From positions 8,885,998 to 8,949,997 of the forward strand of contig JASXTE010000017.1 of the NCBI GenBank assembly GCA_030280995.1: a stretch of DNA of 64,000 nt, read 5' to 3'. This document shows, one piece after another, positions 9,465-57,624 of the stretch. The position numbers were made by a program, and so were the translations under genes. The notes under the pieces were generated by a model, which saw nothing but the letters and a program-made list of their open reading frames with translations, was not told the DNA's origin and did not search any database. The number at the start of each line of letters is the position of its first letter. Within the stretch, counting starts at the first letter, position 1. This DNA is from Hemileia vastatrix. Its lineage: Eukaryota > Basidiomycota > Pucciniomycetes > Pucciniales > Zaghouaniaceae.

Positions 9465-10076
9465 ATGACTGACCAAAGTAGTTCTGCTGCACGTGAAGAA
9501 GAACTAGACTTAATTAATTATGATGAGCCTACTTCTGTAAGTTCTCCTTTAACAAGAAGAATTTCTCAAACTAATAAATCCTTGCCCCAAACAGGATGTA
9601 GAGTTGGAGGAAGTAGAAATCCTAGTGGACACAACTCAGGATCAGAAGCCTATGATAAACCCACCAGAAGAGCTTCCAAAAAGCTTCAGGATAAAAAAGA
9701 TGCCATTGTCTCAGCAGGTAAAGAATCTGTCTACTCACATAAAGGAGTTAAGGACAGAAAGCTTGAGACTAAAGGTAAGGGTAGATGCTTTGGAAGAAAA
9801 GGTGAGAAGAACAGATACTTTTCTCCAAGAGAAGAAGAAATCTCTTCCTCCCAGGGATCAACAACAATTGACTCCCCAGTCCCAAGAGAAGGTGGAAGTG
9901 TCCAAGTGGAAGTGGGACTGGCTAAACACTCAGTGGGACTACCTGGCTCAAAACCAGCATCAGTTACCTCAGGCAGGTCCATCAAGGCTCAACCAGGTCA
10001 ACCCCACTCCTTCTCACCCTTATCAAGGAGGCAAAAGAAGAAGAAAGACCAATATGGTGATACCCAGCAAACCCTG
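9465..10076 (+). CDS. Gypsy-3 spliced overlapping ORF (KWKWDW protein, 185 aa predicted)
   Basis: Exon 1 is 9465-9536 (24 codons), exon 2 is 9595-10076, and exon 3 starts at 10135. The protein has a longer acidic N terminus than the other copies. It then aligns with them: a MINPPEEL...IKK block, a helical Leu/Lys/Glu stretch (about 60-105), SQEK, KWKWDW at 128-133, HPYQGGKRRRK at 165-175 and a terminal Pro-Trp. Without removal of intron 2 the frame would read past the Trp for 28 more codons, because this copy has GTACGT instead of GTAAGT. Splicing joins TG to GTAA and recreates the Trp-stop seen in the other copies. The function is unknown. Confidence 0.8.
9537..9594 (+). other. Gypsy-3 intron 1 (58 nt, frame-switching)
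   Basis: The donor is GTAAGT (9537-9542), the branch is ACTAATA with CTAAT at 9571-9575, and the acceptor is CAG (9592-9594), followed by GATGTAG. The branch-to-acceptor distance of about 19 nt is normal for fungal introns. It occupies the same place as in Gypsy-1 and -2. Confidence 0.8.
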
Positions 10077-10134
10077 GTACGTCCCTCTATTGATTCTCAA
10101 GTGCCTTTTCTTGTGGCTGACTCTGTTCCTTCAG
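10077..10134 (+). other. Gypsy-3 intron 2 (58 nt)
   Basis: The donor is GTACGT (10077-10082), the branch is CTGAC (10117-10121), and the acceptor is TTCAG (10130-10134), followed by GTAAAT. The length is 58 nt, identical to intron 2 of Gypsy-1. Splicing is needed here to regain the conserved stop codon. Confidence 0.75.
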
Positions 10135-11684
10135 GTAAATCAGGAAGAAAGGATGAAACTTTGAGACCTATAGAGGCTGGGAGTAGTAGACAAATCACTC
10201 ATGTATCAAATCCTTTACTTTTAATTGCTACCTCAATGATTAATCCTGATATGGCTGTGATTGATGAAACTCTTGACCCTGAGTTCTATGAGAGTCTGGA
10301 AAGTTACTCAGTTTCCTTATTGAGAAACACTCCAGATGTAGCAAGAATTAATGATGAGCACTTGAGAGATATTATTGCCAAGAAAAATCATATAATGAAA
10401 AATATGCAATTGACTCAGACATATAATAGTTTGTTAACTGATCAGGGTTATCAAGCATTAAGAAGTGAATCACAGAGAGTCTCTGATGAATTGTCTCATT
10501 ACAAAGCAACCCATAAAAAGAAAGTTGCTTTATGGCAAAATATAAAAAATGATTTGTCTAAACTAAAAGATACTGTATCTGCCTGTTGCCAGGAGGTAGA
10601 GATAGATAAGATAAATCTGAAAAGATTGAATGACCATTTGTCATCTTTTCAAAATAAAAATCAATTATCTTTTGCAACTATCAATGAGAGTTTATCTAGT
10701 CTTCCAAGAATGAAAACAAGACTAACAACCATTGAAGAAAAATTGAACTCATTGTTAAATGACCAAAAATATTCTGAAATTTCTGTGAAGGAACATATAG
10801 TGCAGGATGCTCAAATAGTACCTGTGGCTAGTTCATCTAAAGTAAAAATAGCTCCAGAAATACCTGTTGATAACACTGAGTTTCCATCAAAAACTGATGA
10901 TGCACCAGGATCTGCAACAGAAGGATTAAACAATGAGATTTCAGCACAATTAGAGAAATTATAGCTGCTTCTTACTCAGAAACAAACTAGTACTAAGGAG
11001 ACTCCTTCAAATCAAAAGAATTTTCCAAAACTTGACCAGTACCCAACATTTGATGGTGATTCTTCCTCTGATTGGCAACAATTTATTTGCAGAATTGATA
11101 ACTTAAAAAATTCTTACAAACTCCCAGATGAGGAAATTGTGTCCAAGTTAATTTCTTTGTTCACTAATGTTGCCCTGATGTGGTATGAATCTGTTCTCCT
11201 GGATGGGAATGACTACTCATGGGAGGATTGGAAGAAATTAATTAAAGCACAATTTGGTGGCTCCAAGTTCAGAATGGCTCAACAAAGGCAGTATGAGGAA
11301 GCTAGATATATCTCTTCTACTGATAAACCTATTAGGGGGTATCAATGTTGACCAATCCGCAATTAAATTAATTGCGGAAAATAATCTGCATACCCCAATT
11401 ATCTTCCGCAATTATTTTTGCTAATAATTGGGTTATTAGACACTTTACGTGTCAATGTTCACCTCTTATCTGACATTTTTATCCTCAATATTTGATAACC
11501 ACATCTTGGACAACTTTCTGGATATCCCAGCCTTCTACCTTGCTGCGCACTTCCATTCTCATCCCATCCTGTTCATTCTATCCGCTCAGAATTTCTCCCC
11601 ATTTCATCTATTTGATTCTTCTCCTTTTTATCTCACTATCTCATCTGCTTGTTTCTGCTCCTTTTCATCTTCATTTATAATAAC

Positions 11685-13023
11685 ATGCCTCGTCATCCTA
11701 GATCTTCTCAAAGGCAGCCATCACCCAGTTGTTCTTCAATTCCCACTACTTCCTCTTTCCCCCGCTCAGCCAAGAAATCAAAGACTGTTCAATTAAAAAA
11801 AGATGAACATCTCATTCTTATCAACTGGCTGAAAACCAAATCTAACTATGATTCTTGTTTTGGTACTGAGTATGCCACTAAAGTAGGACGGCCCCCCACA
11901 TCAAAAGTTAATGGCTATCTTCTAATGGCAAATGAATTACACAATAAGACCAAGGGAAGGATTGATCTATTGCCTAAACAGATGTCTGAACGCTTCAAGC
12001 ATTATCGAGCAAAATACAAGAAGGCAAAGGCTCTTTCATCTTCCACTGGTTTTGGGGTTACTGACATTGATATAACTAAGGGTATAAAATCCATAGACAA
12101 TAAACTTGATTCTTTATGTCCTTACTTTAAAGAGATGGATGCAATTTTTGGAGAGCGAGCCGATGTTAATCCTGTAAACATGTTGGATGGAGAAGATCCT
12201 ATCTCCGAACATGATGTCAAAGCAAATCTTTTCCCATCCTCTTCCTCCACTCAAGCCTCCCCTCTTCTAAATTCTACGAATCTAGATAGCTTTGCTATTG
12301 ATCCTATTGGCGATTTAACCCAACCCAATCTAACTCAGGTCTGTTTCTTTTATCTTATCAATTCTATTTTTTTATTTACTTATATTTTTCTTATTTCTTA
12401 AAAGGCTGATGAACAAACCCAGGATCCTCAATCAACTGAGTCTGAAGCTAGTGACAATGATGAGGAGGAAAATGCTACGTTGAACAAAAAGAGAAGGGCT
12501 TCAACTAGTCTAAATTTCCTCTCCCAAAGAAGACGAAAAAGTGATACTTCATCACAAACACCTTTTTCTTCGATGGAACAGTTTTTAGAGAAACGTGATG
12601 CTGGTAAGTGATATCATACCTCTTATTACTTTACTCTGCTTTTCTTCTACTTTATGTTAATTTTTATTCTCACTCTAGAACAAGTGGAAATTGCTAAAGA
12701 GACACTGAGCTTTGAAAAGAAGAAATACAAGCTCTCTTTAAGGAGGGATGACAGAGTACAAGATTTGGAAGAGAGGAAGTATGAGCTCTCCTTACGGAAG
12801 GATGATCGGATCCAAGATTTGGAGGAGAAGAAGTTTGAGCTCTCTTTACAGAAGGATGGTAGGGCCCAAGATTTGGAGGAGAAGAAGTTTGAGTTAACTC
12901 TTAGTATTGAAAAATCCAAAAATAAGGAAAAAACACTCAAGCATCAAAACTTAATGGAACAGATGAAGTATAAGCATGATCTCCAAGAAAGTTCTAAAAA
13001 GAAAGATTTCTTGATCGAATGAA
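11685..13023 (+). CDS. Harbinger-1 Myb/SANT-like protein gene
   Basis: Exons are 11685-12338, 12405-12603 and 12679-13023. Donors are GTCTGT and GTAAGT, acceptors AAAAG and CTCTAG; introns are 66 and 75 nt. The N-terminal half is a trihelix/Myb-SANT-like DNA-binding region (LILINWLKTKSNYDSCFG... through ERFKHYRAKYKKAK). A Ser-rich acidic linker follows, then a C-terminal coiled coil with three 18-residue repeats of the type LSLRKDDRIQDLEEKKFE. A TGC-to-TGA change at 13021-13023 removes about 20 C-terminal residues seen in Harbinger-4. In PIF/Harbinger elements such Myb-like proteins act with the transposase in DNA binding and nuclear entry; that role is assumed here. Confidence 0.8.
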
Positions 13024-13225
13024 TTAAAGCAAACAAATCTGTTGAAGAAATAGAACGTTTAATGAAATTTTTTGTTGACTAGTTTCTTTTATTTCTTTCA
13101 CACTTCATGTGTTCATATTTATTTGTACATAAATTTTACAATTATTTTCTGTATTTCTTGAAATATCGTATTTTAATGTTAAATATTCTTTTTTTAAATA
13201 AAATTTTCAAGTCTCCTTTGAAAAT

Positions 13226-13630
13226 TTGACAATCCCCCACCCCTGGATTTTTTTGAAGTAAGGGGTGGGTATCACAAAAATTCTTTCATGTCATGAATCT
13301 TGAAAGTTTTATATGAAAATTTGGCTTTACTACCCCCTGCATTTTACCGGTATCCTAAAAATTCTTACATGTCAAGAATTTCACAAGTCTTATAAAAAAT
13401 TTTGGCACAACCCCCCATGGATTTTATTGAAGTAAGGGACGGGTATCACAAAAATATTTACAAGTCAAAAAAATTCTATATCTGTTTAAAAAAATTGGCA
13501 ATACTCTCCCCTGCATTTTATTGAAGCAAGGGGTGGGTATCACCAAAATTTTTCTAAGTCATCAATTTCACATGTCAGATTTGAAAATTTGGCAATACCC
13601 CCCCCCTGCATTTTATTGAAGTAAGGGGTG
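13226..13630 (+). repeat. Hairpin tandem repeats between convergent Harbinger-1 genes (about 5 units of 85-105 bp)
   Basis: Each unit contains a C-run arm, CCCCTGCATTTTATTGAAG, and a G-run arm, AAGGGGTGGGTATCA, able to fold as a stem-loop. Units are linked by AT-rich sequence with CAAGTC and AAATTTGGC words. The G arm plus GTATCA resembles the element terminus (AGGGGGTATCA). Equivalent arrays are at 46826-46980 in Harbinger-2 and 57625-57960 in Harbinger-4, always between the 3' ends of the Myb/SANT-like and dioxygenase genes. Confidence 0.75.
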
Positions 13631-13931
13631 GAAGTCATCTAAATTTAATATAATTACATAAATTATTAAATAAATATCTAATATATATCAATTTCCCTAG
13701 TTTAAAGTAATGACAATCCCTCAAGCCAAAATGCAGACCAAGTCGAGAAACATAAGTTTGGGACTTTCTACAGGTATAGGAAAGAGGAACCCCATGAAAC
13801 AAATAAATGTTATCATGATTACCTGTTATACAACACAAGGTCGATGGCTCATCACATTATTTGAGAAAATTGATATATAAAAAATATTTATTAAAAATTT
13901 ATGAAAAAATATAAAATTTTCGATGACAACT

Positions 13932-14549
13932 CTAATCCCCATACTTTTTGGATCTAGATAAAGTTTTTTTAAATCGAATAACTTTACCTTCTTTCTTTAC
14001 CTTATTGATTCTTTGTATCAACTTATTACTGATTTGAAATGAGCAACCGAAATGAGTGAAATCTTGACAGGATTTCAAACCAGGAGGAGCTTTGGTCGTT
14101 TGATGATTATCCTTAGAAGAATTCCAAATAGTTTCGATGATACCATTTCCCAAACCAAAATCAATGATGCACCGGTGGTCTGGAAAATATAAACCATGTC
14201 CTTTGATTTTAGCTGGAGATGGTATTGGGTGGCCAGTTATCAGATTGATATATGAGAATATTCCAAAAGTAAGAAAATTGGCATCATTCCTATCGATATG
14301 AATCCTATTGTGGAATCCAGAATGAGTGATAATAACATTAGAAAATAAAAGATATTCGTGGCTGATATCTTCCAATTCGGAGTCACACCAATTCAGTATT
14401 CCAACTTTGGTTGCAAGTTCATGATTTTTTTCAAATGCTTTATTACAGAGCTTGTTGAGTTGAAAAGCAAGAAAAGAGTTAAAGGAAGGTAGAGTGTCCC
14501 ATAAGCAAAAATCTTCATCTTTTTGAGCTTTAGTGATATTCTTGACCAA
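13932..14549 (-). pseudogene. Harbinger-1 Tet-like 2OG-Fe(II) dioxygenase, C-terminal domain
   Basis: This open frame of about 205 codons matches the C-terminal half of the Harbinger-4 gene: NVIITHSGFHN, an HxD iron-binding motif in HIDRND, GIFSYIN, GHGLYFPDHRCIIDFG, TIWNSS, a distal His in NHQTTKAP, and FGCSFQI near the end. This pattern fits the fungal Tet-like/JBP-like 2OG-Fe(II) oxygenases, which oxidise methylated bases in characterised relatives; the activity here is inferred. There is no ATG at the 5' edge (TTG at 14549), and the N-terminal exons seen in Harbinger-4 are absent, so the gene is truncated. The core motifs look intact. Confidence 0.75.
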
Positions 14550-14639
14550 CGAATATATGCCTATATAATTGAAATGCCTAGATAATAATCATATAAGAGT
14601 TTCAGAATCCTTATCCTCTAAATATGCAATATAAAAGTG

Positions 14640-14990
14640 TGAAATAAGACAAGTGAAATTTGGAAAAAAGGCTCAACTTCAAAGGTCAAAATCTCAGCAA
14701 CCACTGAACCTAATTCAAACCTGTTTGTGGAAAATGAAAGATATGCTTTAGTAGAATCTTCAGTTAAAGGACATGCGATTTAAATAAACCTAACCCTAAT
14801 TTGTTACATAAAAAATGAAATAAAAATTTAAATTGGGAAAAAAAAGGCTCAACTTTAACGGTCAATATCTCAGCAACCACTGAATCAAATTCAAATCTGT
14901 TTGCAGGAAATGAAAGGTAGCCTTCAGGAGAATCTTCAGTAAAAAGAACATTAGATTTGAATAAACCTAACCCTAATTCCGAGTCTGATT
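14640..14990 (-). repeat. Two about 175-bp repeats upstream of the Harbinger-1 dioxygenase
   Basis: Two copies of a block with AAAAAAGGCTCAACTT, GGTCAAnATCTCAGCAACCACTGA and AATAAACCTAACCCTAA begin near 14640 and 14820. Harbinger-2 has three copies (47690-48310). They lie where the missing N-terminal exons of the dioxygenase would be expected, so they may be remains of intron or promoter sequence. Confidence 0.65.
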
Positions 14991-15822
14991 TTCAAAATTT
15001 TACAAAAACTTGAAAAGTGGTAATGAAGATGAGATCAAAAGGAGTTTTATAAGTTCACTGTTATCCAGATAAGAGTCATACATATATTTAAGTATGAAGT
15101 TTTCATAAAAGGAATGAGATATCATATAGGCATGAAAAAAAGGAGATGAAACTTACCTTGATTGAAAAGTAGGAAAAATATAGTGAGAAAGATTGATGTT
15201 GGAATTGTGGGGAAATTGAATATGGAGTAAGTGAAATGCATAAAGAATGTGCAATGTATGTGTTTCAATGAAATGGAGCCAAAAAAAAGTGAAATAAGGG
15301 AAAGGGGGGATAATGACAATGCCAAGGAGGGATGAAGAGTAGGGTGATGGAGCTAAAAAATAAAGTAAAGAGGGAGAGAAAAAAAAGGTTAATTATACCA
15401 TTGAAATCCAAAATAACCACTTACAAAAAAAATTTAGATAAAAAAAATAAAATAAACAGAAAAAAACAAAAAAAATTATAATTAGTAATCAAAAAATCAA
15501 AAAAAAAGAATAAAATGACTTACCTGGAGAGATGAGATGACAAAATGAATGAAACCAAATTGTTTGAGGGATGTTGGAGGAGAATAGGAAAAGGATATGA
15601 GGGATGAATGAAAAAAAAAATCACTGACAAAATATGCAATTTCAGAAAATATGTGATTTCATGTTGAGCTGGTGAAAGAAAACCAATGAGCCATCCAAAA
15701 AAAAGATATTCACTGTAAATTCAAAAAAAAAAATGAATATGCAACAAACCAAAATACAAAACCAAGTGATTAAAGTACACAAAGAGGACATTTGGAAAGT
15801 ATGAAAACATAAAAATTAAAAA

Positions 15823-16506
15823 TTAAAAGGGTGAAGAGAAATGTTGGAGAGTAATTGCAGGCTTTTGACTCAAAGGGATGGTTGTGCCATCAACAAAACC
15901 TACACAGCCAGGGAAACCTTCAGCTTGCATTACTTGAGAGGATTCAAGTCGCTGTTCTGGAGTTGGCCAAGCAAGAGTTTGAGACTTGAGGGAAAGGATA
16001 GCAATCATACAGCGCTTGGTGTATAATATCACGGTACCATATCCTATGTTAAAGAGATTATCCAAACGTCTTACGGCAGCACCATTTCCATTTGAGCCAA
16101 AGCGACATAGAGCAACAGCAAGTTGGATGGCAGGATTACGCTGTTTGTTATGAGAATTGTTATGGAAGATAGGATGATCGGAGATGAGTTGATAAAGTTT
16201 GAAGAAAGAATCGGGAGAAGTTCTAAAAAGTTGTGTGAAGTTTAAATGAGGAATGTTGAGAATGGAGGCCAGATCATATCGGGGATCATGATAAAGATTT
16301 GGCCCCCTGGTGATGATGTAACGCTTTTTGGAAAGAAAACACATATAAGCTAAAGCATCTTCCAAATCAGAGTCAGATTTATAGTAAAGAACTAAAAGAA
16401 AAGTAATAGCATTCATTGTTGAGTGAAGTAGCTTCCTAGTAGAGAGGTGTTTCATTGTTGCGGGTGGAAGGGTTATGTGATGAGGGAAGTGGGAATTCAC
16501 CGCCAA
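15823..16506 (-). pseudogene. Harbinger-1 DDE transposase with internal deletion
   Basis: The 227-codon frame starts MAVNSHFPHH and contains the helix-turn-helix-like region (NPAIQLAVALCRFGSNGNGAAVRRL) and the first catalytic Asp in GFVDGT. It then jumps from PLSQKP directly to the C-terminal end ITLQHFSSPF. Harbinger-4 keeps the missing part with the second Asp (VADSAY) and the Glu (IEHAIGILKG) before the same C terminus. So Harbinger-1 has an in-frame deletion of the second half of the DDE_Tnp_4-type catalytic core. The protein could still bind DNA but not cleave it. Confidence 0.85.
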
Positions 16507-16720
16507 ATGTGCAGTTGGGGTGTGTAGATAGAAAAAAAACTTAAGTGTTCGCCACCAAAATTAAGTAGCATAGAGTGAGGAAATACTTAAGGATGGCATC
16601 AGCAATTATAAGTCATGTGACTTTCTTAAAAATCCATCATGGATGAGATGAGTTTGGGATCAGGAATTAGGAATGGAAATTGGGGTATAAGGGGCGGGAT
16701 AATGCATTATCGTGGATTTC

Positions 16721-16750
16721 TTATCCACTAGCCCTGGGGCTAGTGGATAA
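16721..16750. repeat. Perfect subterminal hairpin of Harbinger-1
   Basis: Arms TTATCCACTAGCCC (16721-16734) and its exact complement (16737-16750) are separated by TG. Related hairpins are at 49730-49760 (Harbinger-2) and 51036-51062 (Harbinger-4), with mismatches. This is a likely transposase-binding or RNA-structure site. Confidence 0.8.
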
Positions 16751-16835
16751 GAATCTTCCGCAATTAATAATGTCTGATCCCGGGAAAAAAAATTCCTGAT
16801 CCCTAATTGCGGATCCCTGAACATTGATACCCCCT

Positions 16836-19539: not shown

Positions 19540-20716
19540 TGTCAGTACAGTCTAGTATATAAGTATGATATAATAGTGTTATTTTATGGTCCTACTACTT
19601 ATTAATAAATGATTTAGTGATTAAACCTCAGGGGAAGACTAATAGAATAGTTATACTCAAATAAAACTCACAATACTTGGATTTAAATGCGTGCTAGTGG
19701 TGGAAAATAGAAGAATAAAATATAGTTATAGCTTTTATAAAGATAATATCAATTTATAAGGGCTTTATAATATATTTCTGAATGTTAATAATTGTAGTGT
19801 AATGTTTGTTTGAAGTGTAGTAATTGAATGATGATAATAAACCGTCAAAATCCCTTCTTACTTATACCCAAATCCACTGGAGTGCACAGACCTTCAATCC
19901 AGATGATGTCACTGCTATCCCCGGCAATTACAGCACTGTGAGGGCCCATCACCTCCCCATGGCGTCCACTTCAAGCAGTTTCAACACCCAGACCTCCAGT
20001 AAGGACCCTCCATCACTATTAATAATAACACAGAGTCATACCATAAATAGAAATCCCAGATAAAAGCGGATACCATAAAGAAACAGGTAAAATAAATGAT
20101 CAAAAAGAGATTTAATGAAACTAAAAGCATATAAAGGAAACAAATAAAATGTCCAAGCCCCCAATAACATCCCCAAGCATCCACATTAACCCAAAAACAT
20201 CTTTCCAACCCATAAATCCGTGAATAACCATCCAAGGAAGTAATTTTAGTTGTCCAAACTGGGTGTATGCGCCTGATATAGGTGTCTATGCTTCTGTAGG
20301 TGTTGTGAATCCACTGATTTCGTCCATATGACCTAAAATAAGCAGAAAAACAAAGGTTATAGGCTATTAAGGGGCTAAAACCCACTTACATACCTAAATA
20401 TACATAATATACTGCATATTTCACTGAATATGAGATTTATGTATACATATAAGCTTATGTATGTCAATAATTACTTCATATCACTTAAGATAAGTATATT
20501 ATGACTCCATTAACACCTTAATAAGTATTATTAGGCCATGGATAAGCTATTTAAACTATTATAAATTATATAGTAGAATAATAATTATATATATATATAA
20601 TAAAATAATATATATTATTATTTTAACCTTATTTTTAAGATATAAGCTTAATCTAGTTAAGGTTATCTTATTTTAAGCATAAGAAATACTCAGTCCTAAG
20701 GATATTTAGGCTGACA
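19540..20716 (-). repeat. Gypsy-2 3' LTR (1177 bp)
   Basis: It begins TGTCAGTACAG and ends TTTAGGCTGACA on the plus strand, and is nearly identical to 27210-28386. Next to it the plus strand reads CTCCCTCACCCC (20717-20728), which on the element's own strand is a polypurine tract GGGGTGAGGGAG. Short ORFs inside the LTR are repeated in both LTRs and I do not regard them as genes. Confidence 0.95.
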
Positions 20717-20830
20717 CTCCCTCACCCCAAAAAAAACAATAAAAAAAATGTTAAGACATTTTAATTAATCTTAAGGAATGAAATAATAAAATAAAAAATT
20801 TTTTATAATACATATACTGAATGAACAGTA

Positions 20831-21829
20831 TTATTTAGATTTAAATTTTTTCAAGAGATTTTTAAGATCAGAGATTTCATTTTCTGGAATCCACTGGTCA
20901 TATTCACTTGATTTATTTTTAAATCTTAATAGATACTCAACTCCCTTTTCTTTAGTAAGGTGTCTCTTTTTAAGTATCTTTTCAATTTCTGCTTTTTCCA
21001 CTATTTCTTCAGGTTGCTGTTTATGCCTTCCTGATCTTCTTGGAAAGAGAGCAGTGTCATTAGAATGGTATGGTTTTATAAGAGAAATAGGAAATACTGG
21101 ATGTTTTCTATCATAAGGTGCATATAGAATAACCTCAACAGCATTATTACCAACCATCTTTTTAACTACAAATGGTCCAATGAATGGATCCTTCAATTTA
21201 ACATTACCATTTAAATTGAAATGTAGCGTTGAAATAAGGACTTCATCACCCTCTTTGAACATTTGTTCTTTATGGGCTTTATCCCATCTTTTCTTTTCAT
21301 ACTCAAAAGCCTTATTTATACATTCTTGAGCATGTTTTCTGCATAATTCCTGCATTTGAAGAAAAGATTTAGTACCTGGATGAATATCCAATCTAGGTAA
21401 CTTATTAAGAGTTTTAGCAGGGGTATTAGGTACATAACCCAACCATAACTCAAATGGCTTTTTGCCAGTGACAGAATGTACTGTACTATTATATGCAAAT
21501 TCTAAACCTGGGATAAGGGTTACCCAATCATGCCTGAATTTGTCATTGTCTTTAAAATTAAGACCAAAAGCACAGTATCTTCTTATCATATCTTCTAAGG
21601 TTTGTATCATTCTTTCTGCTAGCCCATCAGTTTGTGGATGGTGTGCTGTAGAAAGTTTTAATTGACACCCTGAAACATCCATAAGTGACGTCCAGAACTC
21701 AGAAGTAAATTTAGGATCTCTGTCAGAAACTATTGCTTTGGGGAAACCTGCTGTATTTAACATTTGTGTCCACCATATAAAAGCTAAGTCCTTTGAAGAA
21801 ACCTCTTTGTGTGTAGGAATAAATTTTCA
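20831..21829 (-). pseudogene. Gypsy-2 pol: integrase C-terminal half with chromodomain
   Basis: This follows a TGA (21827-21829) that replaces the Cys codon of the conserved FTKMCKFIPTHK motif. It contains the integrase second Asp (SDRDPKFTSEFW) and Glu (HPQTDGLAERM), the GPFVVKKMVG C-terminal fold, and a chromodomain-like end (EIEKILKKRHLTK...EYLLRFKNKSSEYDQWIPENE) at about residues 255-305. Chromodomains of this family can guide integration to chromatin marks. The frame ends in a normal TAG/TAA region about 110 bp from the LTR. Confidence 0.9.
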
Positions 21830-23228
21830 CATCTTTGTAAATCTATCTACAATTACCCAGCAGGAGTTATAACTCTTATGCCCTGCTATTGGCAAACCTG
21901 TTATAAAGTCCATGTTAATGATTTCCCATGGAGCTTTTGGTTGCTCAATTTGTTGTAATAAACCAGCTCTTTTTCCTGTTAATCTTTTAGATTTTTGACA
22001 AGAATCACATGTTTCAACATATTTCTGAACATCCTCAGACATGTTAATCCACCAAGCTGTGTTTTTTACTCTGGTTAATGTTTTATGGTAGTCAAAATGA
22101 CCTGCTAATATATCATCATGACATATACTTAACATTAACTCCTTCATTGAAGGGGGAATTACAATCACATTACTTAATTTTTTCCTGTAATATATAAAAC
22201 CATCCTCAATGGAAAATTTTCCTTTTTCTAATGCCTCTTTATACTTAATTGGTAATGTTTTTATTAAAACATTCATTGAAGCATTAGATGGATCATTTAA
22301 TATTGTAGTTAATTTACTTAAGTCAGGATCTGAATTATAATTATCAAGAATTGATTGCATAAATTCATCCTCAAGATCTACAATATAAATGCCATAAATG
22401 TTAATAATCTCTGACTCAGGAACATAAGCAGGATTATCATCATTATTAGGCAGAGGTACTCTAGATAACAGATCTACATTAGAGTGCAAGGTTCCTGCTC
22501 TATGTGTAATAGTCATCCGTCCTCTGTATTCTTGTACAGCTAATTGCCATCTAAACATGTGTCTATTAGGAGTTTTCATGTTTAAGAGTGACTTAACTGC
22601 ACTACAGTCAGTTATTAACTCAAATCTTTGGTCTTCCAGGTAATAATGTAGCTTTTCAAGAGCCCATACTACTGCCAAACATTCAAGTTGAGTAGCACCA
22701 TATTTCAATTCACCACTTCTCAGAGTACGTGAAATATAGCAGATTACTACTTCTGACATTTTACCTTCAATAAGTTGTTTTTGATGCAAAGCAGCACCCA
22801 GTCCAATAAAACTTGCATCTGTATATAATACAAAAGGTAATTGGAAATCTGGTAATCCCAAGATAGGAGCTGTCATTAAACATTCTTTCAACTTATTAAA
22901 AGCTTGTTGTCTTTCATTATTCCAAATGAAAGCTTCTGATTTCTTTATCAGTGTGGTCAGTGGTGCAGCAATTGATTGGTAGTTTTTTATATATTGTCTA
23001 TAATAACCACACATTCCAAGAAAAGATTGTACATCCTTCACATTTTGAGGAATGCCAATATTCTTTATTGCAGCCACTTTATTTTGGTCTACACATATTT
23101 GTAAGCCAGATACAATATGACCAAGCACTTTTAAAGATTCAAACCCAAATTTACATTTTTTCAATGCAAGGGTCATTTTTATTTCATCCATTTTCTGAAA
23201 TACTTTCCTTAAATGGATTAAGTGTTCA
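21830..23228 (-). pseudogene. Gypsy-2 pol: RT end, RNase H, integrase N-terminal half
   Basis: This open frame runs from the frameshift near 23236 to the TGA at 21827. It contains the RT thumb (MDEIKMTLALKKCKFG), RNase H (TDASFIGLGAALHQKQ near 22800), and the integrase HHCC zinc finger (HDDILAGHFDYHKT and CDSCQKSK near 21990-22110), followed by the first catalytic Asp in NMDFITGLP. Confidence 0.9.
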
Positions 23229-26200
23229 TCAAAAATTTTTAGAGAACACTATGATGTCATCAATGTATACCATTAACCATCCCTCAATCATTTCATTATG
23301 GAATGTTATATCCATTAACTTTTGAAATACTGATGGAGCATTCTTTGGTCCAAATGGCATTCTGACATACTTATAAATTCCCATGTGTGTTGTTATCAAC
23401 AAAAAGTTCTGTGAATTCTTTTCAACAGGAATTTGATGGTACCCTTTATTTCCATCTAGGCAACTTATATATTTAGCACCTTTAAGGGTAGCATGTATAG
23501 AGGCAATCCTTGGCAAGGGATAAATATCATCTACTGTAAATGTATTTAATGCTCTATAATCACCGCACAGTCTTGCTTTATCTTGTTCATAAGAAATCAG
23601 CACTGGTGATATTACACAATATTTTGGTGTAGTTTCAACCTTCTCAAGAATGTTCATTTTTAATAACATCTTAATATTATCCTCTATGTCTTTCCTCTTC
23701 ATTGGTGAAGCAGGGTATGGTTTCTTTTTAAGACTAGCAGGAATATTATCCATATCACAGGTTAAACTAATTTTCATTTCATGATCTTTTACAAGGCCAA
23801 GTTCATTTGTACCATGTGCAAAAGCCATTGGAAAAGCTTTAATTAATTCCAAAATATTATCTTTCTCAGTTTCACTTATCTGAGTGCCAAATGATGCTTT
23901 TGAAATTTCTGTTTCCAGAAGTTCCATCTCATTGGATTCTCTTCCTTTAGACGGGGAATTTGTTACTGACTCAATGTGTAAGACTGTGTTAAAAGAATTT
24001 ATTTTAAATTTCCTTTTACCATTCATGCCAATTGTAAAATTGTTATTAGCAGGGTCTAATTTTACACCAAATTTAGTCAGAATATCATTTCCAATGATAA
24101 AACAGTTACTACAATTTGTATTATCCATTACTACAAAGTCACAAGTTACCCTTACATAACCATGTTGGTGTTTAAAGAAAACAGCAGCTTTGTATTTACC
24201 AATGGGGTGTAGTACTGATCCAAAACCTCTCCAATTTTTATTCTGAAGTGGTTCAAGCTTAAACTTATATTCACTATCAATTTTCTGTAATGTATTAGTG
24301 GAAACAACTGAACCAGCAGCTCCTGTGTCCAATACTATATTAACATTTTCACCAGAAATGATAGCTGGAACCGTGATAGGTGTCATTCTAAAGTTATCAG
24401 CTTGTATATCCTTAATGATTTCAGCATCCTCAAAATTCATTAAAGATTCATTTGAGTCCATATTTAATATTGGATTTTCAAAGATGGACAAATCATCTTC
24501 CAACATACAGACTTCATTTTCATCACTATATGAGATATTGCTGTCATAATCACTTGATTCTTTACTTTTTTCAGTTTCAGTTTCAGATTCACGTTGATTT
24601 TCAACAATATTTATGTTTTTCTCACATTTGTGACCTTTGACCCAAGGTTTGTTACACTTATAACAAGTATTTGTTTCATACTTTTTAGGTACTACAGGTG
24701 CAGTAGGTTTTTTCTGCTTCTCCTGAAGTGTTTTTGAATTCTGAGTTTTTACAGGTTCAACATTTTGCTTATAAGTGGAATACCTTGATTCATACTTATG
24801 GTTTAATAATATTTCATTGCAAATATTAATAAAGTCAGAATATTCAGTAACATTTAATGTTCTAGCTACAACAATGTCTCTGACAGATATAGGTAATTTG
24901 TATATTATCTTATCTTTCCATAAGTTAAAATCCATATGAGGCTCAATGGCTTTTAATATTTTGTTTAAATTCATTAAAAATACCATAGGTTTGTCACCAT
25001 TCAACGGATTATACCTAGTCTTCTCATACAGTCTCTGCTGAGTAAGCCTGAATTTATAACCTCCAAATTGTTTTTCAATAAGTTGTTTCCATTCAGCCCA
25101 AGAGTAGTCTCTACCCTCACTTAAGACAGCTTCAAACCATAATAAAGCAACATCCTTAAATAAAGAAATTAATTTTGATGTTATCTCTTCATCTGGTAAC
25201 TTATATGAGAATTTCAAGTTGTCAATTCTTTGAATAAAATGTTGCCAATCAGAGCTGGCTTCCCCATCATAAGTTGGGTACTGATCTATCTTAGGCCAGT
25301 TCTTCTGATTGGATTTTATCTCACTAATCTTAGGTAAATTCAACAACTCATTCACTTTTGATAAATGGTCTTGTATTTCTTCCTGCACGGATTTGTGACT
25401 TACATTTTCAGATTTGACACTACCACCAGATGGTTTCAATTGTGGTGGTATAGGGAAGGAATGAGATTCACTTTTGCCAATGAAAGGATTATTATTATAT
25501 TGATTATACTTATGATTATCCTGGTTCATTAGTAGATTGGCAGTTTCAATCTCAACTTTAGTTAATCTTTGTAGCAACTCAGAGACACTTTGATTTGTCT
25601 GTGCAAAAGATAACTTTGTTCTTGATTCAGTCTTAAATAAGTGTGTTTCATATAATTTTTCTAACTCACAAAATTTGTTTGAAAGGTCATTATATTTATT
25701 ACTCAATGAATCATATTTAAGAGTTAGAGACAAATGTTCTTTCTCTAATTCTTTATTATGTGTTGCTAATTGAGAAATGTTCAATGTTAAGGATGAAATT
25801 GTATCACTAGTGAGTTTAACTGTCTGTTCCTCACAATCAGTCATTCTATTCCACAATGCTGAAACAATTCTATGGACAGTTGGATTATTGTTAAAATATT
25901 CGATGTCCTCCTTTTCAATTCTCTCACTCTCCTGTGAACTTCTCATCTCACTAGTAGGTGGTTGCAACTGAGGATTAACTGTATTATCATTGTATATAGT
26001 ACTGTTATTATGGACAAAAGACAAGTCAGGTGTATCTACTCTAAAACCTAAATTTCTTAAATCCTCCTCTATTTTTTGTACAGATTTAACATCAATAGAA
26101 TTACCTATATTGTAATTATCAGTATTATGTCTAATCTGAGAGGGTAAGTTACTTACCAAGGGATGGTTGCCAGTCCTGATTTTTGGCGCTTTTTTCCCTT

Positions 26201-26699
26201 GTAAGGGTGAGCTGAGGAAGTCAGATGAGGGGGCGGATCCCTGTTGCAACTGTGGCTTGTCCACTGTTGGTGAAACCAGTCCCATTTCCATTTGTCTACC
26301 AGGATTTTCTCCTGGGAGTGAGTGGACCCTCCTTGGGTAGGGGGTTGCTGATTTGATTGATTGGGCTGGCCTCCCTTTAATTCTGCCATTGCCTGATTCA
26401 TCTGCTGAAATCCTACCTTGCAATTGTTTTGCAACTGCTCTACCTCTTTGAACATGAGATATTTTGATTCCTCTAGCTTCAGAACCTGTTTGGCCAGGTG
26501 GGACAGTTGATCCTGAAGAGGAGGAGACGTCTTTTTGATAGTTATCTTTTTTAAGAGGGCGTCCTTTTCCTCTATACTCATGCTTTCTGGCTGGGGGTAC
26601 TGTTGTCCCTCCATGGTGATGTCCTGGAAAGTTTTTATTAGCTTTAGACCTGGTATTATAAGCAGGCTGTTCACTTACACTATCCTGGGGAGCACTCAT
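23229..26699 (-). CDS. Gypsy-2 Gag-Pol polyprotein (unspliced frame, 1156 codons)
   Basis: From ATG 26699 the frame is open through a basic low-complexity N-terminal extension (about 1-190, overlapped by the spliced ORF) and a coiled-coil-like region (about 270-390). Then come the capsid-like region beginning at NWPKIDQYPTYDG (about 475), the zinc knuckle CYKCNKPWVKGHKC (about 676-690), protease DTGAAGS (about 790) and RT to YIDDIIVFSK (about 1145). It stops at a 1-base insertion in a run near 23236. Gag and protease-RT are fused with no frameshift, unlike classical Ty3. Such an undamaged Gag frame through both introns argues that unspliced RNA is translated. Confidence 0.9.
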   Translation of the reverse strand: MSAPQDSVSEQPAYNTRSKANKNFPGHHHGGTTVPPARKHEYRGKGRPLKKDNYQKDVSSSSGSTVPPGQTGSEARGIKISHVQRGRAVAKQLQGRISADESGNGRIKGRPAQSIKSATPYPRRVHSLPGENPGRQMEMGLVSPTVDKPQLQQGSAPSSDFLSSPLQGKKAPKIRTGNHPLVSNLPSQIRHNTDNYNIGNSIDVKSVQKIEEDLRNLGFRVDTPDLSFVHNNSTIYNDNTVNPQLQPPTSEMRSSQESERIEKEDIEYFNNNPTVHRIVSALWNRMTDCEEQTVKLTSDTISSLTLNISQLATHNKELEKEHLSLTLKYDSLSNKYNDLSNKFCELEKLYETHLFKTESRTKLSFAQTNQSVSELLQRLTKVEIETANLLMNQDNHKYNQYNNNPFIGKSESHSFPIPPQLKPSGGSVKSENVSHKSVQEEIQDHLSKVNELLNLPKISEIKSNQKNWPKIDQYPTYDGEASSDWQHFIQRIDNLKFSYKLPDEEITSKLISLFKDVALLWFEAVLSEGRDYSWAEWKQLIEKQFGGYKFRLTQQRLYEKTRYNPLNGDKPMVFLMNLNKILKAIEPHMDFNLWKDKIIYKLPISVRDIVVARTLNVTEYSDFINICNEILLNHKYESRYSTYKQNVEPVKTQNSKTLQEKQKKPTAPVVPKKYETNTCYKCNKPWVKGHKCEKNINIVENQRESETETEKSKESSDYDSNISYSDENEVCMLEDDLSIFENPILNMDSNESLMNFEDAEIIKDIQADNFRMTPITVPAIISGENVNIVLDTGAAGSVVSTNTLQKIDSEYKFKLEPLQNKNWRGFGSVLHPIGKYKAAVFFKHQHGYVRVTCDFVVMDNTNCSNCFIIGNDILTKFGVKLDPANNNFTIGMNGKRKFKINSFNTVLHIESVTNSPSKGRESNEMELLETEISKASFGTQISETEKDNILELIKAFPMAFAHGTNELGLVKDHEMKISLTCDMDNIPASLKKKPYPASPMKRKDIEDNIKMLLKMNILEKVETTPKYCVISPVLISYEQDKARLCGDYRALNTFTVDDIYPLPRIASIHATLKGAKYISCLDGNKGYHQIPVEKNSQNFLLITTHMGIYKYVRMPFGPKNAPSVFQKLMDITFHNEMIEGWLMVYIDDIIVFSKNF
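26105..26156 (-). other. Gypsy-2 intron 2 (52 nt)
   Basis: The donor is GTAAGT (26156-26151), the branch is CTGAT (26122-26118), and the acceptor is TATAG ending at 26105, followed by GTAATTC. Six bases shorter than its homologues, so again a multiple of three. Spliced and unspliced forms both read TGG-TAA here. Confidence 0.7.
26157..26699 (-). CDS. Gypsy-2 spliced overlapping ORF (KWKWDW protein, 163 aa predicted)
   Basis: Exon 1 is 26699-26679 (MSAPQDS), exon 2 is 26623-26157, and exon 3 begins at 26104. The spliced frame reads DITMEGQQYPQPE, then MSIEEKDALLKK, an amphipathic Leu-rich stretch (about 45-90), a Gln/Pro-rich linker, SQEK, KWKWDW at 118-123, HPYKGKKRQK at 146-155 and a terminal Pro-Trp, then a stop. 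Alignment with Gypsy-1 and Gypsy-3 is better in this frame than in the Gag frame over the same DNA. Candidate roles (RNA binding, export, assembly or silencing suppression) cannot be told apart from sequence. Confidence 0.8.
26624..26678 (-). other. Gypsy-2 intron 1 (55 nt, frame-switching)
   Basis: The donor is GTAAGT (26678-26673), the branch is GCTAATA with CTAAT at 26641-26637, and the acceptor is TTTCCAG ending at 26624, followed by GACATCACC. It is three bases shorter than in the other two copies, so the frame switch is preserved. Confidence 0.8.
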
Positions 26700-27209
26700 A
26701 TTGTTCAGAATAACAATATTTTACGTCTACAAAAGGAAAAACTCTGTGGAATTAGTAGACAAAAGATATTAGTAATTATATTACTAATAAAAAAGCAATG
26801 GAGCTTACCCTGAATTTATATCTTTATTTATTTAAATAAAATATAAGAAAAATTAGAAAAAATCTGTTAAAAATATAATAATAAGTTTAACTAGACCTCT
26901 ATAAGGGTGAATAATTAGCTTACCAAGCTTTAGCCAAATACCAATTTAATTGGGTGTTATATTGGTGTCCAAATACCAAGTGAAATTGGGTTTATATTGG
27001 GTACAGTTACTACTGTAAATATCTAATTTTTATGATAAAAAATTAGTACAATTATTATAAGGGTTCTTTTCCGCAATCAATGAGTTATGATGACCCACTA
27101 ATATGCAGCAGACCCAAATATTTGGTTAATTTTGAGTTGTACTAAGGTAAAAATCACGTCCCAAGGCTTATACTAAATAATAAGTAAAATATAAGGAAAG
27201 ACCCCCAAT
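26700..27209 (-). other. Gypsy-2 leader with candidate 65-nt intron
   Basis: This 510-nt untranslated leader contains a strong intron candidate: donor GTAAGC (26808-26803), branch TACTAAT with CTAAT at 26755-26751, and acceptor CCACAG ending at 26744, 44 nt before the ATG. The primer-binding-like site is at 27209-27195. The rest is AT-rich and without ORFs. Confidence 0.6.
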
Positions 27210-28386
27210 TGTCAGTACAGTCTAGTATATAAGTATGATATAATAGTGTTATTTTATGTTCCTACTACTTATTAATAAATGATTTAGTGATTAAACCTCA
27301 GGGGAAGACTAATAGAATAGTTATACTCAAATAAAACTCACAATACTTGGATTTAAATGCGTGCTAGTGGTGGAAAATAGAAGAATAAAATATAGTTATA
27401 GCTTTTATAAAGATAATATCAATTTATAAGGGCTTTATAATATATTTCTGAATGTTAATAATTGTAGTGTAATGTTTGTTTGAAGTGTAGTAATTGAATG
27501 ATGATAATAAACCGTCAAAATCCCTTCTTACTTATACCCAAATCCACTGGAGTGCACAGACCTTCAATCCAGATGATGTCACTGCTATCCCCGGCAATTA
27601 CAGCACTGTGAGGGCCCATCACCTCCCCATGGCGTCCACTTCAAGCAGTTTCAACACCCAGACCTCCAGTAAGGACCCTCCATCACTATTAATAATAACA
27701 CAGAGTCATACCATAAATAGAAATCCCAGATAAAAGCGGATACCATAAAGAAACAGGTAAAATAAATGATCAAAAAGAGATTTAATGAAACTAAAAGCAT
27801 ATAAAGGAAACAAATAAAATGTCCAAGCCCCCAATAACATCCCCAAGCATCCACATTAACCCAAAAACATCTTTCCAACCCATAAATCCATGAATAACCA
27901 TCCAAGGAAGTAATTTTAGTTGTCCAAACTGGGTGTATGCGCCTGATATAGGTGTCTATGCTTCTGTAGGCGTTGTGAATCCACTGATTTCGTCCATATG
28001 ACCTAAAATAAGCAGAAAAACAAAGGTTATAGGCTATTAAGGGGCTAAAACCCACTTATATACCTAAATATACATAATATACTGCATATTTCACTGAATA
28101 TGAGATTTATGTATACATATAAGCTTATGTATGTCAATAATTACTTCATATCACTTAAGATAAGTATATTATGACTCCATTAACACCTTAATAAGTATTA
28201 TTAGGCCATGGATAAGCTATTTAAACTATTATAGATTATATAATAGAATAATAATTATATATATATATAATAAAATAATATATATTATTATTTTAACCTT
28301 ATTTTTAAGATATAAGCTTAATCTAGTTAAGGTTATCTTATTTTAAGCATAAGAAATACTCAGTCCTAAGGATATTTAGGCTGACA
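27210..28386 (-). repeat. Gypsy-2 5' LTR (1177 bp)
   Basis: This is the partner of 19540-20716, flanked outside by GCTTC. Internally it abuts ATTGGGGGTCTTTCC on the minus strand (27209-27195), the likely primer-binding site. Confidence 0.95.
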
Positions 28387-34729: not shown

Positions 34730-34876
34730 CATGGGGGAAAAGATGCTAAAGAATAAATACAAACCTGATTATTTAAAGATTGTAAATCACATTCTTTTTC
34801 ACTTTTCGATCCTATTCTCAAAATCTGATCAAACCCAAGAGTTAAAAGATTTGATTGAGCTCAACTATTTATTATT
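34730..34876 (+). pseudogene. Unrecognised ORF interrupted by Copia-2
   Basis: A short plus-strand frame (first ATG about 34730) reads MGEKMLKNKYKPDYLK, then a Leu/Ile/Phe-rich helical stretch, up to ELNYLL, where Copia-2 is inserted. The frame continues past the element and its TTATT repeat (40830 on) with about 18 more residues and a stop near 40890. I do not recognise the protein. It might be the end of a host gene or of an older element. Confidence 0.3.
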
Positions 34877-35764
34877 TGAAAGAATAATAAAAGCCTTTAA
34901 TCTAGCGTAAGTCTTCTCCTCTAGTAACACTGTGGATGAAGCTGAAATCGCTGATAGTAATGCGCTAACCTTTAATCTAGCGTAAGTCTTCTCCTCTAGT
35001 AACACTGTGGATGAAGCTGAAATCGCTGATAGTAATGCGCTAACCTGTATGATATGAGATCTACTCGTAAATAATATGGATCACAAGAGAACAGTGTTGT
35101 GCTAACCTTTAATCTAGCGTAAGTCTTCTCCTCTAGTAACACTGTGGATGAAGCTGAAATCGCTGATAGTAATGCGCTAACCTGTATATTCAAGTGAGTA
35201 CGTGTAGAGAGATGAGATGAGATGATGAGCAAAAGAAGACAAAAGATATTTAATTGCAAAGATAAGCACACCTGTATGATATGAGATCTACTCGTAAATA
35301 ATATGGATCACAAGAGAACAGTGTTGTGCTAACCTACAAACATAGTGGAGTATGAATATAATAGTAACAATAGGAAACTACAGTTAGAGCACACCTTTAA
35401 TCTAGCGTAAGTCTTCTCCTCTAGTAACACTGTGGATGAAGCTGAAATCGCTGATAGTAATGCGCTAACCTATAACAATAACAATTAAATGTAAAAATCA
35501 ACTTATGATAGTAATGGTACACACCTGTATATTCAAGTGAGTACGTGTAGAGAGATGAGATGAGATGATGAGCAAAAGAAGACAAAAGATATGGTAATAG
35601 ATGAACACTTGATAGCTATATATACCATAACTACAACTTCTCACGCTAGCACAATACACTTCTCTCTCTTCTACATACAGTTAGTATCAGTCCACTTCGG
35701 GACAAGTAATGCAAAAAAGATTATAATAATAAGTATGAATTAGAATATTATGTATATACTAACA
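34877..35764 (-). repeat. Copia-2 3' LTR (888 bp, modular)
   Basis: On the element strand it runs TGTTAGTATATAC...ATTATTCTTTCA. It contains shuffled repeated modules. Module A (about 75 bp, TTTAATCTAGCG...GCGCTAACCT) occurs four times. Module B (GTATGATATGAG...GTGCTAACCT) and module C (GTATATTCAAGTGAG...AAAGATAT) occur twice each. Every module ends in AACCT or CACACCT on the plus strand. A TATATATA box lies near 35612-35625. Confidence 0.9.
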
Positions 35765-38700
35765 CTCCACCTCATTACTTGAACCAATAGTGCGTCGACA
35801 TTCATTCAGGCCTAGATCTGTTCTAAATTTTTCAAATTTTGTACGATCCAGTGCTTTTGTCATGATGTCTGCAACCATGTCGTGCGTAGAGCAGTATTTG
35901 AGATTTAATTCGCCATCAAGTACTTTTTCCCTGACCCAGTTGAAATGTACTTCAATATGTTTTGTTCGTTTGTGAGCTACGGGATTCTTTGACAATGCTA
36001 TTGCTCCTTGATTATCTCCATAAAGTAACGTTCCTTGATTGTTTTCATACCCTAGTTCACTTAGCAGTTTTCGCAACCATACTCCTTCTAATCCTGCATC
36101 AAGATATCCCTTATACTCAGATTCAGTGGCTGATGTGGAAACAGTGTTTTGCTTTTTGCTCTTCCAAGAAATAGCACCTCCACCGAGCAGAAAGGCATAC
36201 CCATTAGTTGATCTACGTGTTAGATTACATCCAGCCCAATCCGCATCACTGAAACCTGTAGGTGCTTGATTGCTAATATTGATTTTCGTGGGTATTAATG
36301 TTTTGAAGTCTCGTGAGTACAGTAGGCCAACATTGGCTGTACCCTTGAGATATCTTAGAATTCGGAGTGCCGCTTGCCAGTGAGACTGATTTGGTTTTAT
36401 GAGGAACTGAGATAAATAGTTGACAGCATGGGTGATATCCGGTCGAGTACATTGTGCTAGATAGCCAATACTTCCAATGATACTTCGATAGTCATTTCCT
36501 GTTTTCAGAAACTGAGCGTATTGGTCATCATCAGAGGGTAACAGCTGGATATTTGATTGCATTGGAGTAGGATTAATTTTGCAGTCTGTCATACCGAAGG
36601 TTTCTAATAGATCTGCTATGTACTGACTTTGGTGTAGTTGAACAGAAGTACTATTTAGTCGAGTAATTTGTATACCCAGTAGATAAGTTGCTTTTGTGAA
36701 GTCATGTACCTTGAAATCCTTCGATAATTCAGCATGAAATTGATGAGCCCCGTGTCCAATGATAGCCATGTCATCCACCCAAATAAACACATATAAATAG
36801 TCATCATTTGAATCTTTTCTAATAAATAAACAGGGATCGCTATTGCTGGTTTTAAACTTATGTTTATGGAACCACTTAGATACCTCCTGATACCAGGCTC
36901 TAGGTGCCTGCTTTAAACCGTAGAGTGCTTTTTTTAATTTTAAAACTCTGCTACCACCATTTAATTGCTCTATCTCCTTTTTACAGTTCAAGTTTGATCT
37001 ATCCAACCACTCAGTAAAACCTTCTGGAGGTTGAATAAAGATGTCTTCGTCAAGATTACTGTTTAGGAATGCAGTCTTTATATCAAGTTGATGCATCGGT
37101 AATCCTTCAATAGCAGCAAGCGCAAAGATCGTTCGAAGGGTTGCCAGTCTCCCGGTAGGTGCAAACGTTTCGTTGAAGTCTATTCCATGTCTTTGTAGAT
37201 AGCCTTTGATAACCAGTCTTGCTTTAAATTTGTTAAGGACTCCATTTTCATCATACTTTGTTTTGAAGATCCAACGGGTAGGTATTGTTTTTTGATGATT
37301 AGCAGGGACGATACACCACACGTGATTTTCATGAAGTGAGTCAAGTTCTTCTTTAATTGCACTTATCCAGTGTGACCTTTGAGACCCACTGATTGCCTTT
37401 CTGTAATTGTCAGGATCTGTGTTTTGTTGTTCGACAAAGTTTATTAAAGCATTGTGGGTACCTTCAAGTTCATTTATCACCTTCCTGGTATGAGATCTCA
37501 GGGTGGGTCCAGAATACTGATCTGATTGATTTTCAGGTGGCGGTGGACCAAGGCGTAAGATTAGTCGTCTGGTTACTGGATTTTCAGTATCTGCTGACTG
37601 TTCTTCTATTTGTTCCTCTACTGCATCATGAAATTCCTCATCATCTTCAACATTTTGATTTGTTGGTGTCTCTGTTGTGTGACTTATGGTGACGATATTG
37701 AACATTTCTTTTGGGCTGTTGCAATCTTTCATAGGAAACACTGACTCATTGAATGTGGCGTTGTGAGTGAAGATTATTCTTTTTGTTTGAATTTCCATCA
37801 ACTTATAGTTGTTGTTTCCTTCAGAATACCCAAGTAGAACACATCTGGTGCCTGTCGGAGCAAACTTATTTTTCCTCTGTTGTTTTGGAATATTGGCAAT
37901 AGCTAGGCATCCAAACGGGTGTAGATGTGTTATTTTTGGTTTTCTGCCGGTAAGTGCTTCATATGGTGATATCATATTTGCAGCCTTACTAACTATCAGA
38001 TTTTCCAAATATACTGCTGTTATTACTGCTTCTCCCCAATAGCTAAGTGGTAGCCCTGATTGGAACAGCATCGCTCGAGCTTTCTCGGTGGTGATTCGAT
38101 TTCCTCGCTCGCTGATTGGGTTCTGCTCAGGTGTATAAGGCGCAGTGATTTGATGGAAAATACCATTGTCTTTAAGGTATGTTTCAAATTTATTCGAGCA
38201 GTATTCTCCTCCTCCATCTGTTACAATAGTCTTAATTTTTGATTCACAGATATTTTCATATTTTGTCTTAAATTCCGTTAATTTAGATAGTGCCTCATCT
38301 TTGTTTTTTAACAGGTATACTGCACGAGTTGAAGTTAATCCATCTGTGATCTTCATATAGTACTCATAGCCACTGTTGGTTGGTGGATTGATTCTGCCAC
38401 TAAGATCGGTGTGGATCACTTCCAGAGGTTTCTTTGGTGTTGGAAAATGTCCTTGAAATGGTAGTTTCTTCGCTTTTGTCATTTCGCAGATTTCACAGAA
38501 GAACTGACTGTCGTCCAACGTCTCACCAACAGTTGACTTTGTATACTTCGAGTTTGGATGTCCCAGTCTATCATGCCACATTTTTACAGAGCAAATCAGT
38601 GCGGACTCAGCTGGTTTGAAGTTTCCACGCATTTTGCAAAGATTGTTCTCGATATCTGCATTGAATTTAAGATTTTTATTACTGATGATGCATCTTTCGG

Positions 38701-39883: not shown

Positions 39884-39941
39884 GTTACTAGTGTTACTAG
39901 TTGTTGTTTGTGCTTAAGTACGTGAGCTGGTACTGATAATG

Positions 39942-44243: not shown

Positions 44244-44483
44244 GTTTCAGACAGTAACTTGTTTATTATAATAGGTAAACTGGTCTGAAAAAATTTGTTA
44301 TGCAATAATTATTTACTTAATTATTAAGAATATTATAAAATTAGTATTTTAAGTTATTTAAATATTATAATTTATTGTATAATTAGATTATTTAAATTAT
44401 TTAACTATTATACAATTAATATATTTAACTAATAAATATCTTTCTTTAAACTAAAATATTATTATTTCTTTATTGTCTTAATT
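44244..44483. other. Very AT-rich spacer
   Basis: The stretch is almost entirely A/T with short ATTATT words, and holds no ORF. It is the left flank of Harbinger-2, and I cannot recognise it as Gypsy-4 gag, which flanks the right side of the block. Confidence 0.5.
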
Positions 44484-57600: not shown

Positions 57601-57624
57601 GATTTCTTTGATTCAATAAATTGC

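Follow-up and report, generated by a model that had tools for sequence, protein, structure and literature searches.

A conserved accessory reading frame, predicted to be reached by splicing, overlaps the start of gag in three Ty3/gypsy elements of Hemileia vastatrix

The stretch of the rust fungus Hemileia vastatrix considered here (contig JASXTE010000017.1, positions 8,885,998 to 8,949,997 of the forward strand, 64,000 nucleotides (nt) in total and hereafter called the window) carries four related copies of a Ty3/gypsy retrotransposon, G1 to G4, and in three of them, G1 to G3, the beginning of gag appears to encode two different proteins on the same bases. In particular, it is probable that unspliced RNA of these elements yields Gag-Pol, and that RNA lacking a short first intron, and usually lacking a second one as well, yields an accessory protein from the dual-coding start of gag. 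Genomic RNA that escapes splicing would be read as Gag-Pol from its first AUG, with exon 2 and the two introns on either side of it translated as a long, basic and disordered N-terminal extension of the polyprotein. Upon removal of intron 1, usually together with intron 2, translation from the same AUG would pass into the +1 frame and produce an accessory protein of 159-185 amino acids (aa), in which a long coiled coil is predicted to be followed by a helix with WKWDW and by a basic tail with a PW end. Such splicing would occur in cells and would be only partial, and the accessory protein would self-associate via its coiled coil and act on Gag or on the RNA of the element.

The three elements share one arrangement, in which a short exon 1 and a dual-coding exon 2 are each followed by a predicted intron. 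In G2, which lies on the minus strand, exon 1 (26679-26699) comprises the ATG and six further codons (MSAPQDS) common to Gag and the accessory protein, predicted intron 1 (26624-26678; 55 nt, GTAAGT...CTAAT...CAG) is open throughout in the Gag frame, exon 2 (26157-26623; GC 48%) is dual-coding, for Gag and for the accessory frame (DITMEGQ...WKWDW...IPW), and predicted intron 2 (26105-26156; 52 nt, GTAAGT...CTGAT...TAG) has a donor that overlaps the accessory TAA stop. G1, also on the minus strand, comprises exon 1 (5396-5416; MCDNNDI), predicted intron 1 (5338-5395; 58 nt, GTAAGT...CTGAA...CAG), exon 2 (4883-5337), with an accessory frame reading EIQMEGQ...WKWDW...RPW and a single Gag-frame TAG at 4895-4897, and predicted intron 2 (4825-4882; 58 nt, GTAAGT...CTAAC...TAG). 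On the plus strand, G3 has an exon 1 of 24 codons (9465-9536), predicted intron 1 (9537-9594; 58 nt, GTAAGT...CTAAT...CAG), a dual-coding exon 2 (9595-10076; DVELEEV...WKWDW...KPW) and predicted intron 2 (10077-10134; 58 nt, GTACGT...CTGAC...CAG), without which the accessory frame would close with TGG-TAA.

A preliminary description of this DNA had placed GTAAGT 7, 7 and 24 codons after the Gag ATG of G1, G2 and G3, with a CAG acceptor 55-58 nt further on, and all its coordinates hold: the donor lies 21, 21 and 72 nt into the Gag frame, and the intron that it opens is 58, 55 and 58 nt long, ends in CAG and is 1 modulo 3 in each case. Removal of this intron leads into a frame that is +1 to Gag and remains open for 152, 156 and 161 codons of exon 2, where at least 135 had been claimed. 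Predicted intron 2, of 58, 52 and 58 nt and again always 1 modulo 3, starts where the accessory frame ends. Its donor holds the accessory stop in G1 and G2 (TG/GTAAGT); in G3 the donor reads TAC, so that the unspliced frame would continue, and splicing to the following GTAA would give a TGG TAA end like that of the other two. The end coordinates of the preliminary description are the 3' end of this second predicted intron, of which its text makes no mention, and the splicing reading is thereby strengthened. A junction between exon 1 and exon 3 would, as computed by hand, omit 571, 574 and 598 nt and be out of the Gag frame. Exon 2 also stands out in composition, with 44-48% GC vs 33% in a coding reference set; downstream of it in G2, 97 windows average 32% GC, with a maximum of 36.6%.

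Several lines of evidence indicate that the accessory frame is coding. The accessory proteins of the three elements are 32-39% identical and have invariant KWKWDW, HPY (HPYxG) and C-terminal PW motifs; exon 2, whose DNA is 44-50% identical among the copies, is free of accessory-frame stops in every one of them. Global alignment of the accessory frames gives z = 19.8, 12.8 and 12.6 for the three pairs, none of 500 shuffles reaching the score in any pair, and these values, together with the protein identity, bear out the earlier claim that the second frame encodes one recognisable protein. The corresponding Gag-frame values over the exon 2 region are 6.4, 0.8 and 1.4. Moreover, when the Gag proteins are held fixed and their synonymous codons shuffled, the accessory similarity is reached in 0 of 1000 shuffles in each of the three pairs. 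In a frame-neutral DNA alignment, position 3 of the accessory codons is the most variable one in G1-G2 (p 0.0007) and G1-G3 (p 0.034). The alignment scores, the control with fixed Gag and the third-position variability together argue for a coding sequence. Within the window, a profile of the accessory protein reaches significant E-values only at the G1, G2 and G3 loci.

The Gag frame appears to be maintained over the same bases. Exon 2 contains 1, 0 and 0 Gag-frame stops in G1, G2 and G3 vs 5.3-6.1 expected with the accessory proteins held fixed (P 0.005, 0.0005 and 0.00015), in agreement with the earlier observation that the unspliced frame is open, fully so in G2 and G3. The Gag frame is likewise open in all six predicted introns, whose 93 interior codons, splice signals left out, show no stop in this frame, as against 2 and 19 in the +1 and +2 frames; if the signals are included, the counts rise to 9 and 22 in the latter two and stay at 0 in the Gag frame, and 7 of the 9 and 3 of the 22 lie in or touch a signal. 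When the intron interiors are resampled and the signals kept, 6.7 Gag-frame stops are expected and zero occurs in 0.085% of trials (P 0.00085). The Gag-frame product of exon 2 is strongly basic (pI 9.9-10.6), with many disorder-promoting residues. Codon usage is closer to that of Gag-Pol in the Gag frame than in the accessory frame in all three copies, a weak hint that the Gag frame may be the older of the two. Judged from sequence, then, both frames are maintained, with the accessory protein as the more constrained one; in other words, this is an overprinted pair, two selected frames on the same bases, in which the accessory frame is recognised by sequence conservation and the Gag frame by openness only.

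Predicted splice signals flank exon 2 on both sides in all three elements, which would fit a coding exon used only in spliced RNA. A branch-like CTRAY lies 13-19 nt before the intron end in five of the six predicted introns, and CTGAA in the sixth. As a description of these introns, a strict model (GTA[AC]GT, CTRAY, YAG, 50-60 nt) applied to both strands of the window returns six donors, five of which belong to the predicted introns of G1-G3. The accessory protein might also be real and translated from unspliced RNA, by leaky scanning in which ribosomes pass the Gag AUG and start at one within exon 2 (MEGQ). In G2 the MEGQ ATG is the first after the Gag ATG and has the context ACCATGG, no ATG separates the long terminal repeat (LTR) from the Gag ATG, and G1 has the MEGQ start as well. 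Leaky scanning is nonetheless unlikely: one other ATG intervenes in G1, where the route becomes less simple, and in G3 the alternate frame has its first Met at exon 2 residue 20, preceded by other ATGs. Moreover, the frame has a GTAAGT or GTACGT donor at either end, and the PW end of G3 requires the removal of intron 2.

The openness of the Gag frame bears on a different account, in which the introns are constitutively spliced, exon 2 is open in the Gag frame by chance and Gag-Pol starts downstream. The Gag-frame TAG in exon 2 of G1 would agree with this, as would the Gag-frame likeness of exon 2, which exceeds what the accessory protein leads one to expect in G1-G2 alone (8 of 1000 shuffles) and lies within that expectation in G1-G3 (432/1000) and G2-G3 (227/1000). 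The probabilities obtained for Gag openness (0.005-0.00015) and for six open introns out of six (0.00085) make constitutive splicing improbable, however, and the Gag similarity between G1 and G2, as judged by eye, begins at the first codon past intron 2 and upstream of any common Met, so that ribosomes probably reach Gag from further upstream. Leader ATG counts are below expectation as well (0 vs 6.4 in the 510-nt leader of G2, 27209-26700; 2 vs 14.6 in G3; 1 vs 9.6 in G1), and these features are most simply explained if ribosomes on unspliced RNA start at the first ATG and read on into Gag-Pol. Another way into the second frame would be a programmed +1 ribosomal frameshift in the first few codons. 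Ty1 and Ty3 use +1 frameshifting between Gag and Pol, a loss of 1 modulo 3 bases has the effect of a +1 shift, and the accessory frame is open for some distance upstream of each acceptor; yet a common slippery site was not found by eye (no systematic search was made), and the donors, branch-like sites, acceptors and G3 end would be left unexplained, which makes frameshifting very improbable. Equally hard to credit is that the copies are decayed repeats and the alternate frame an accident inherited by common descent, for, broken as Gag-Pol is elsewhere in all three, the accessory frame has kept its protein identity, its motifs and its freedom from stops at the DNA identity given above, and the 99% identical LTRs of G2 and G3 mark both copies as young.

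Splicing as a switch between Gag-Pol and the accessory protein, as the preliminary description had proposed, is supported by the two maintained frames and by the signals at both ends of exon 2, and would fit better than these alternatives because it explains the donors, the branch-like sites, the acceptors, the matching segment ends and the G3 end. A number of observations weigh against it. Its basis is the sequence of three related copies in one window, and in all three Gag-Pol is broken, by a TAG and a frame change in G1, a frame change and a pol stop in G2, and a TAG and insertions in G3. The stop-rich third frame also aligns above shuffles (global z 3.6, 4.0 and 3.7), an echo of the frame that codes, and z alone therefore overstates the case. 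Codon-position periodicity falls short of significance in G2-G3 (p 0.10 or 0.62, depending on the alignment setting), the openness of the accessory frame given fixed Gag proteins is weak when taken alone (P = 0.025, 0.075 and 0.159), and the Gag frame in exon 2 lacks codon periodicity altogether (p 0.60, 0.57 and 0.34). The stop of G1 and G2 is identical with or without intron 2, which is thus dispensable for it. Over 24 scan settings, four to six of the six predicted introns are recovered and 1-67 donors are found elsewhere, the loose settings giving the highest number; since the settings were picked with the six introns already known, the scan is a description and no independent test. Finally, the accessory protein has no homologue in any collection searched, which says little because these collections hold apparently few or no fungal genomes.

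The leaders upstream of the Gag ATG show some features of their own. In G2, an intron-like segment of 65 nt (GTAAGC...TACTAAT...CACAG, 26808-26744) lies just 5' of the Gag ATG. The G3 leader contains four tandem units (8945-9239) with a spacing of 66-82 nt, each resembling an acceptor (TTACTTCAG) that is followed by a mini-exon of 16 nt (TTGACATTAAGTCCTG) and then by GTAA or GTAG as a donor-like motif; it is possible that these units are leader mini-introns.

Spliced retrotransposon RNAs are already known, and what appears to be new is that splicing would lead into a frame overprinted on the first part of Gag. The Ty1/copia element BARE1 makes a spliced subgenomic Gag RNA in which a 104-nt small intron changes the frame, Drosophila copia is named as also having a spliced Gag RNA (PMC3735527), and in Arabidopsis EVD a spliced shGAG RNA yields Gag alone (PMC8892269). 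As would be the case in G1-G3, partial splicing of these elements chooses between a short product and Gag-Pol. It does so, however, by closing the frame just past Gag, so that Gag alone is made, whereas G1-G3 leave the Gag frame after 7, 7 and 24 codons for a different protein on the same bases; a spliced RNA encoding Gag, as in copia, BARE1 and EVD, is therefore not what is predicted here.

Complex retroviruses produce accessory proteins of the Rev, Rex and Rec type from multiply spliced RNA, and the genes of this type overlap env or pol, not the start of gag. The likeness would lie in a small protein from fully spliced RNA, in Gag-Pol from unspliced RNA and in overlapping frames; no sequence relation between these proteins and the accessory protein of G1-G3 was found. 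Rev and others are mentioned in general terms in a paper on the extra open reading frames (ORFs) of plant LTR retrotransposons, the commonest of which form genes of their own, in either orientation, in the interval from pol to the 3' LTR; there, a spliced env-like RNA is known for Bagy2, and a Botrytis element with an antisense extra gene is cited in the reference list (PMC7264820). These systems resemble G1-G3 in the presence of an additional conserved protein in a gypsy element and differ in its position, which in G1-G3 is within gag and in another frame. In Ty1, the p22/p18 copy-number control factor keeps to the Gag frame and is a truncated form of Gag. It comes from a transcript that starts within GAG (PMC8458377) and is, like the protein predicted here, a small product from within gag with a possible action on Gag itself; the accessory frame is +1 to Gag, however, and its product is thus no in-frame part of it. 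A literature search on fungal, spliced, overlapping or overprinted retrotransposon genes, with most subscription papers outside its scope, returned no such arrangement, and in two papers on rust transposons the word 'spliced' (PMC12210899) or the string 'splic' (PMC10067951) is absent.

As for the accessory protein itself, AlphaFold predicts for the three exon-2 sequences a short helix at residues 17-26, a long, confidently modelled helix at 36-84, a second short helix with WKWDW at 111-126 and a low-confidence basic tail. The block means of the predicted local distance difference test (pLDDT) over residues 41-80 are 97, 98, 97 and 94, the overall mean is 67.3 and the predicted template modelling score (pTM) is 0.33. 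The predicted long helix and basic tail are compatible with RNA binding and export of unspliced RNA, and no more than that; that the protein may be oligomeric and act on Gag or RNA is a guess based on its shape. It is conceivable, albeit unlikely, that the elements use a Rev-like feedback switch, in which a self-associating regulatory protein, overprinted on gag and available only through multiply spliced RNA, would control the export, splicing or packaging of intron-retaining genomic RNA.

A PDB profile search (60 of 160 sequences up to E 1) matches a designed coiled coil (E 0.00064), APC (E 0.0047), influenza haemagglutinin HA2 and other chains; these matches cover the coiled-coil part and, among those listed, none passes alignment position 102, that is, all end before WKWDW. 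Pfam gives only weak matches for the three accessory proteins, each in one member (best E 0.0046), and Foldseek finds 0 matches to the accessory model in the PDB. Protein searches with the spliced protein of G2 (13 candidates), the accessory alignment (709 candidates) and G2 Gag-Pol residues 200-720 (7987 candidates) returned no match. The same holds for viral contigs (accessory alignment and G2 Gag-Pol), genome contigs (accessory alignment), phages (G2 accessory protein) and plasmids (G2 DNA 25000-26900). The idea that the accessory coiled coil is a duplicate of Gag's own was dropped, profile comparison giving probabilities of 0.3% and 5.6% (E 0.1 and 0.0068).

If the proposed switch is real, accessory proteins selected by splicing would extend beyond retroviruses and a few plant and insect elements, and the elements would have to retain and export unspliced RNA in a host that splices introns. 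A one-frame annotation that ignores transposon introns would miss a conserved gene. In a family with many copies, selection on both frames and regulated intron retention could be measured directly.

The elements that carry the dual-coding region are Ty3/gypsy chromodomain LTR retrotransposons, as indicated by domain order, LTRs and target duplication. G2 (19540-28386, minus strand) is bounded by a 5' LTR at 27210-28386 and a 3' LTR at 19540-20716, each of 1177 bp and 99.5% identical to the other, with a GCTTC target duplication on both sides. Its Gag-PR-RT open frame (23229-26699, minus strand; 1156 aa) would be readable only when the RNA keeps both introns. The Pol domains RVT_1, RT_RNaseH, Integrase_H2C2 and Chromo follow each other over three successive ORFs of G2 in the usual chromovirus order, and the protease match (20.3 bits) is marginally below the cutoff of 20.7 bits. 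G3 (7638-30651, plus strand) has LTRs 99.2% identical over 773 bp and contains two insertions, G2 and a further element (about 11337-16832); given their LTR identities, G2 and G3 are young. G1, on the minus strand, extends past the left edge of the window, and its 5' LTR ends at 6000 by motif. G4 (59969-63118, plus strand) lacks its 5' part, and its similarity to G2 Gag-Pol begins only at residue 574, so that it is uninformative for the dual-frame region. The TAG of G3 (10962-10964) and the frame change of G1 (4022-4028) occur at nearly the same position, just upstream of the Gag capsid region, and may reflect either decay or recoding. The suspicion of a conserved stop in RT was rejected: the common gap is the end of the query used, and the frame change there occurs in G2 alone.

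The window has a GC content of 33% and contains a TOM40 gene among nested transposons. The gigabase genome of the rust Austropuccinia psidii has 33.8% GC and consists of more than 90% transposon, mostly Gypsy (PMC8063080). The host TOM40 gene (41388-42646) has apparent introns of roughly 70-110 nt, as estimated by eye. A second repeat family is present at least four times (11330-13620, 44450-46217, 49829-51017 and 57612-59943), with one copy inside G3, and its ORF at 11649-12401 has a weak Myb/SANT-like match, below cutoff. A copia element at 34871-40829 has LTRs 99.8% identical and an intact ORF of 1374 aa (35759-39883), and its LTRs contain tandem repeats with GTAAGT...TAG motifs.

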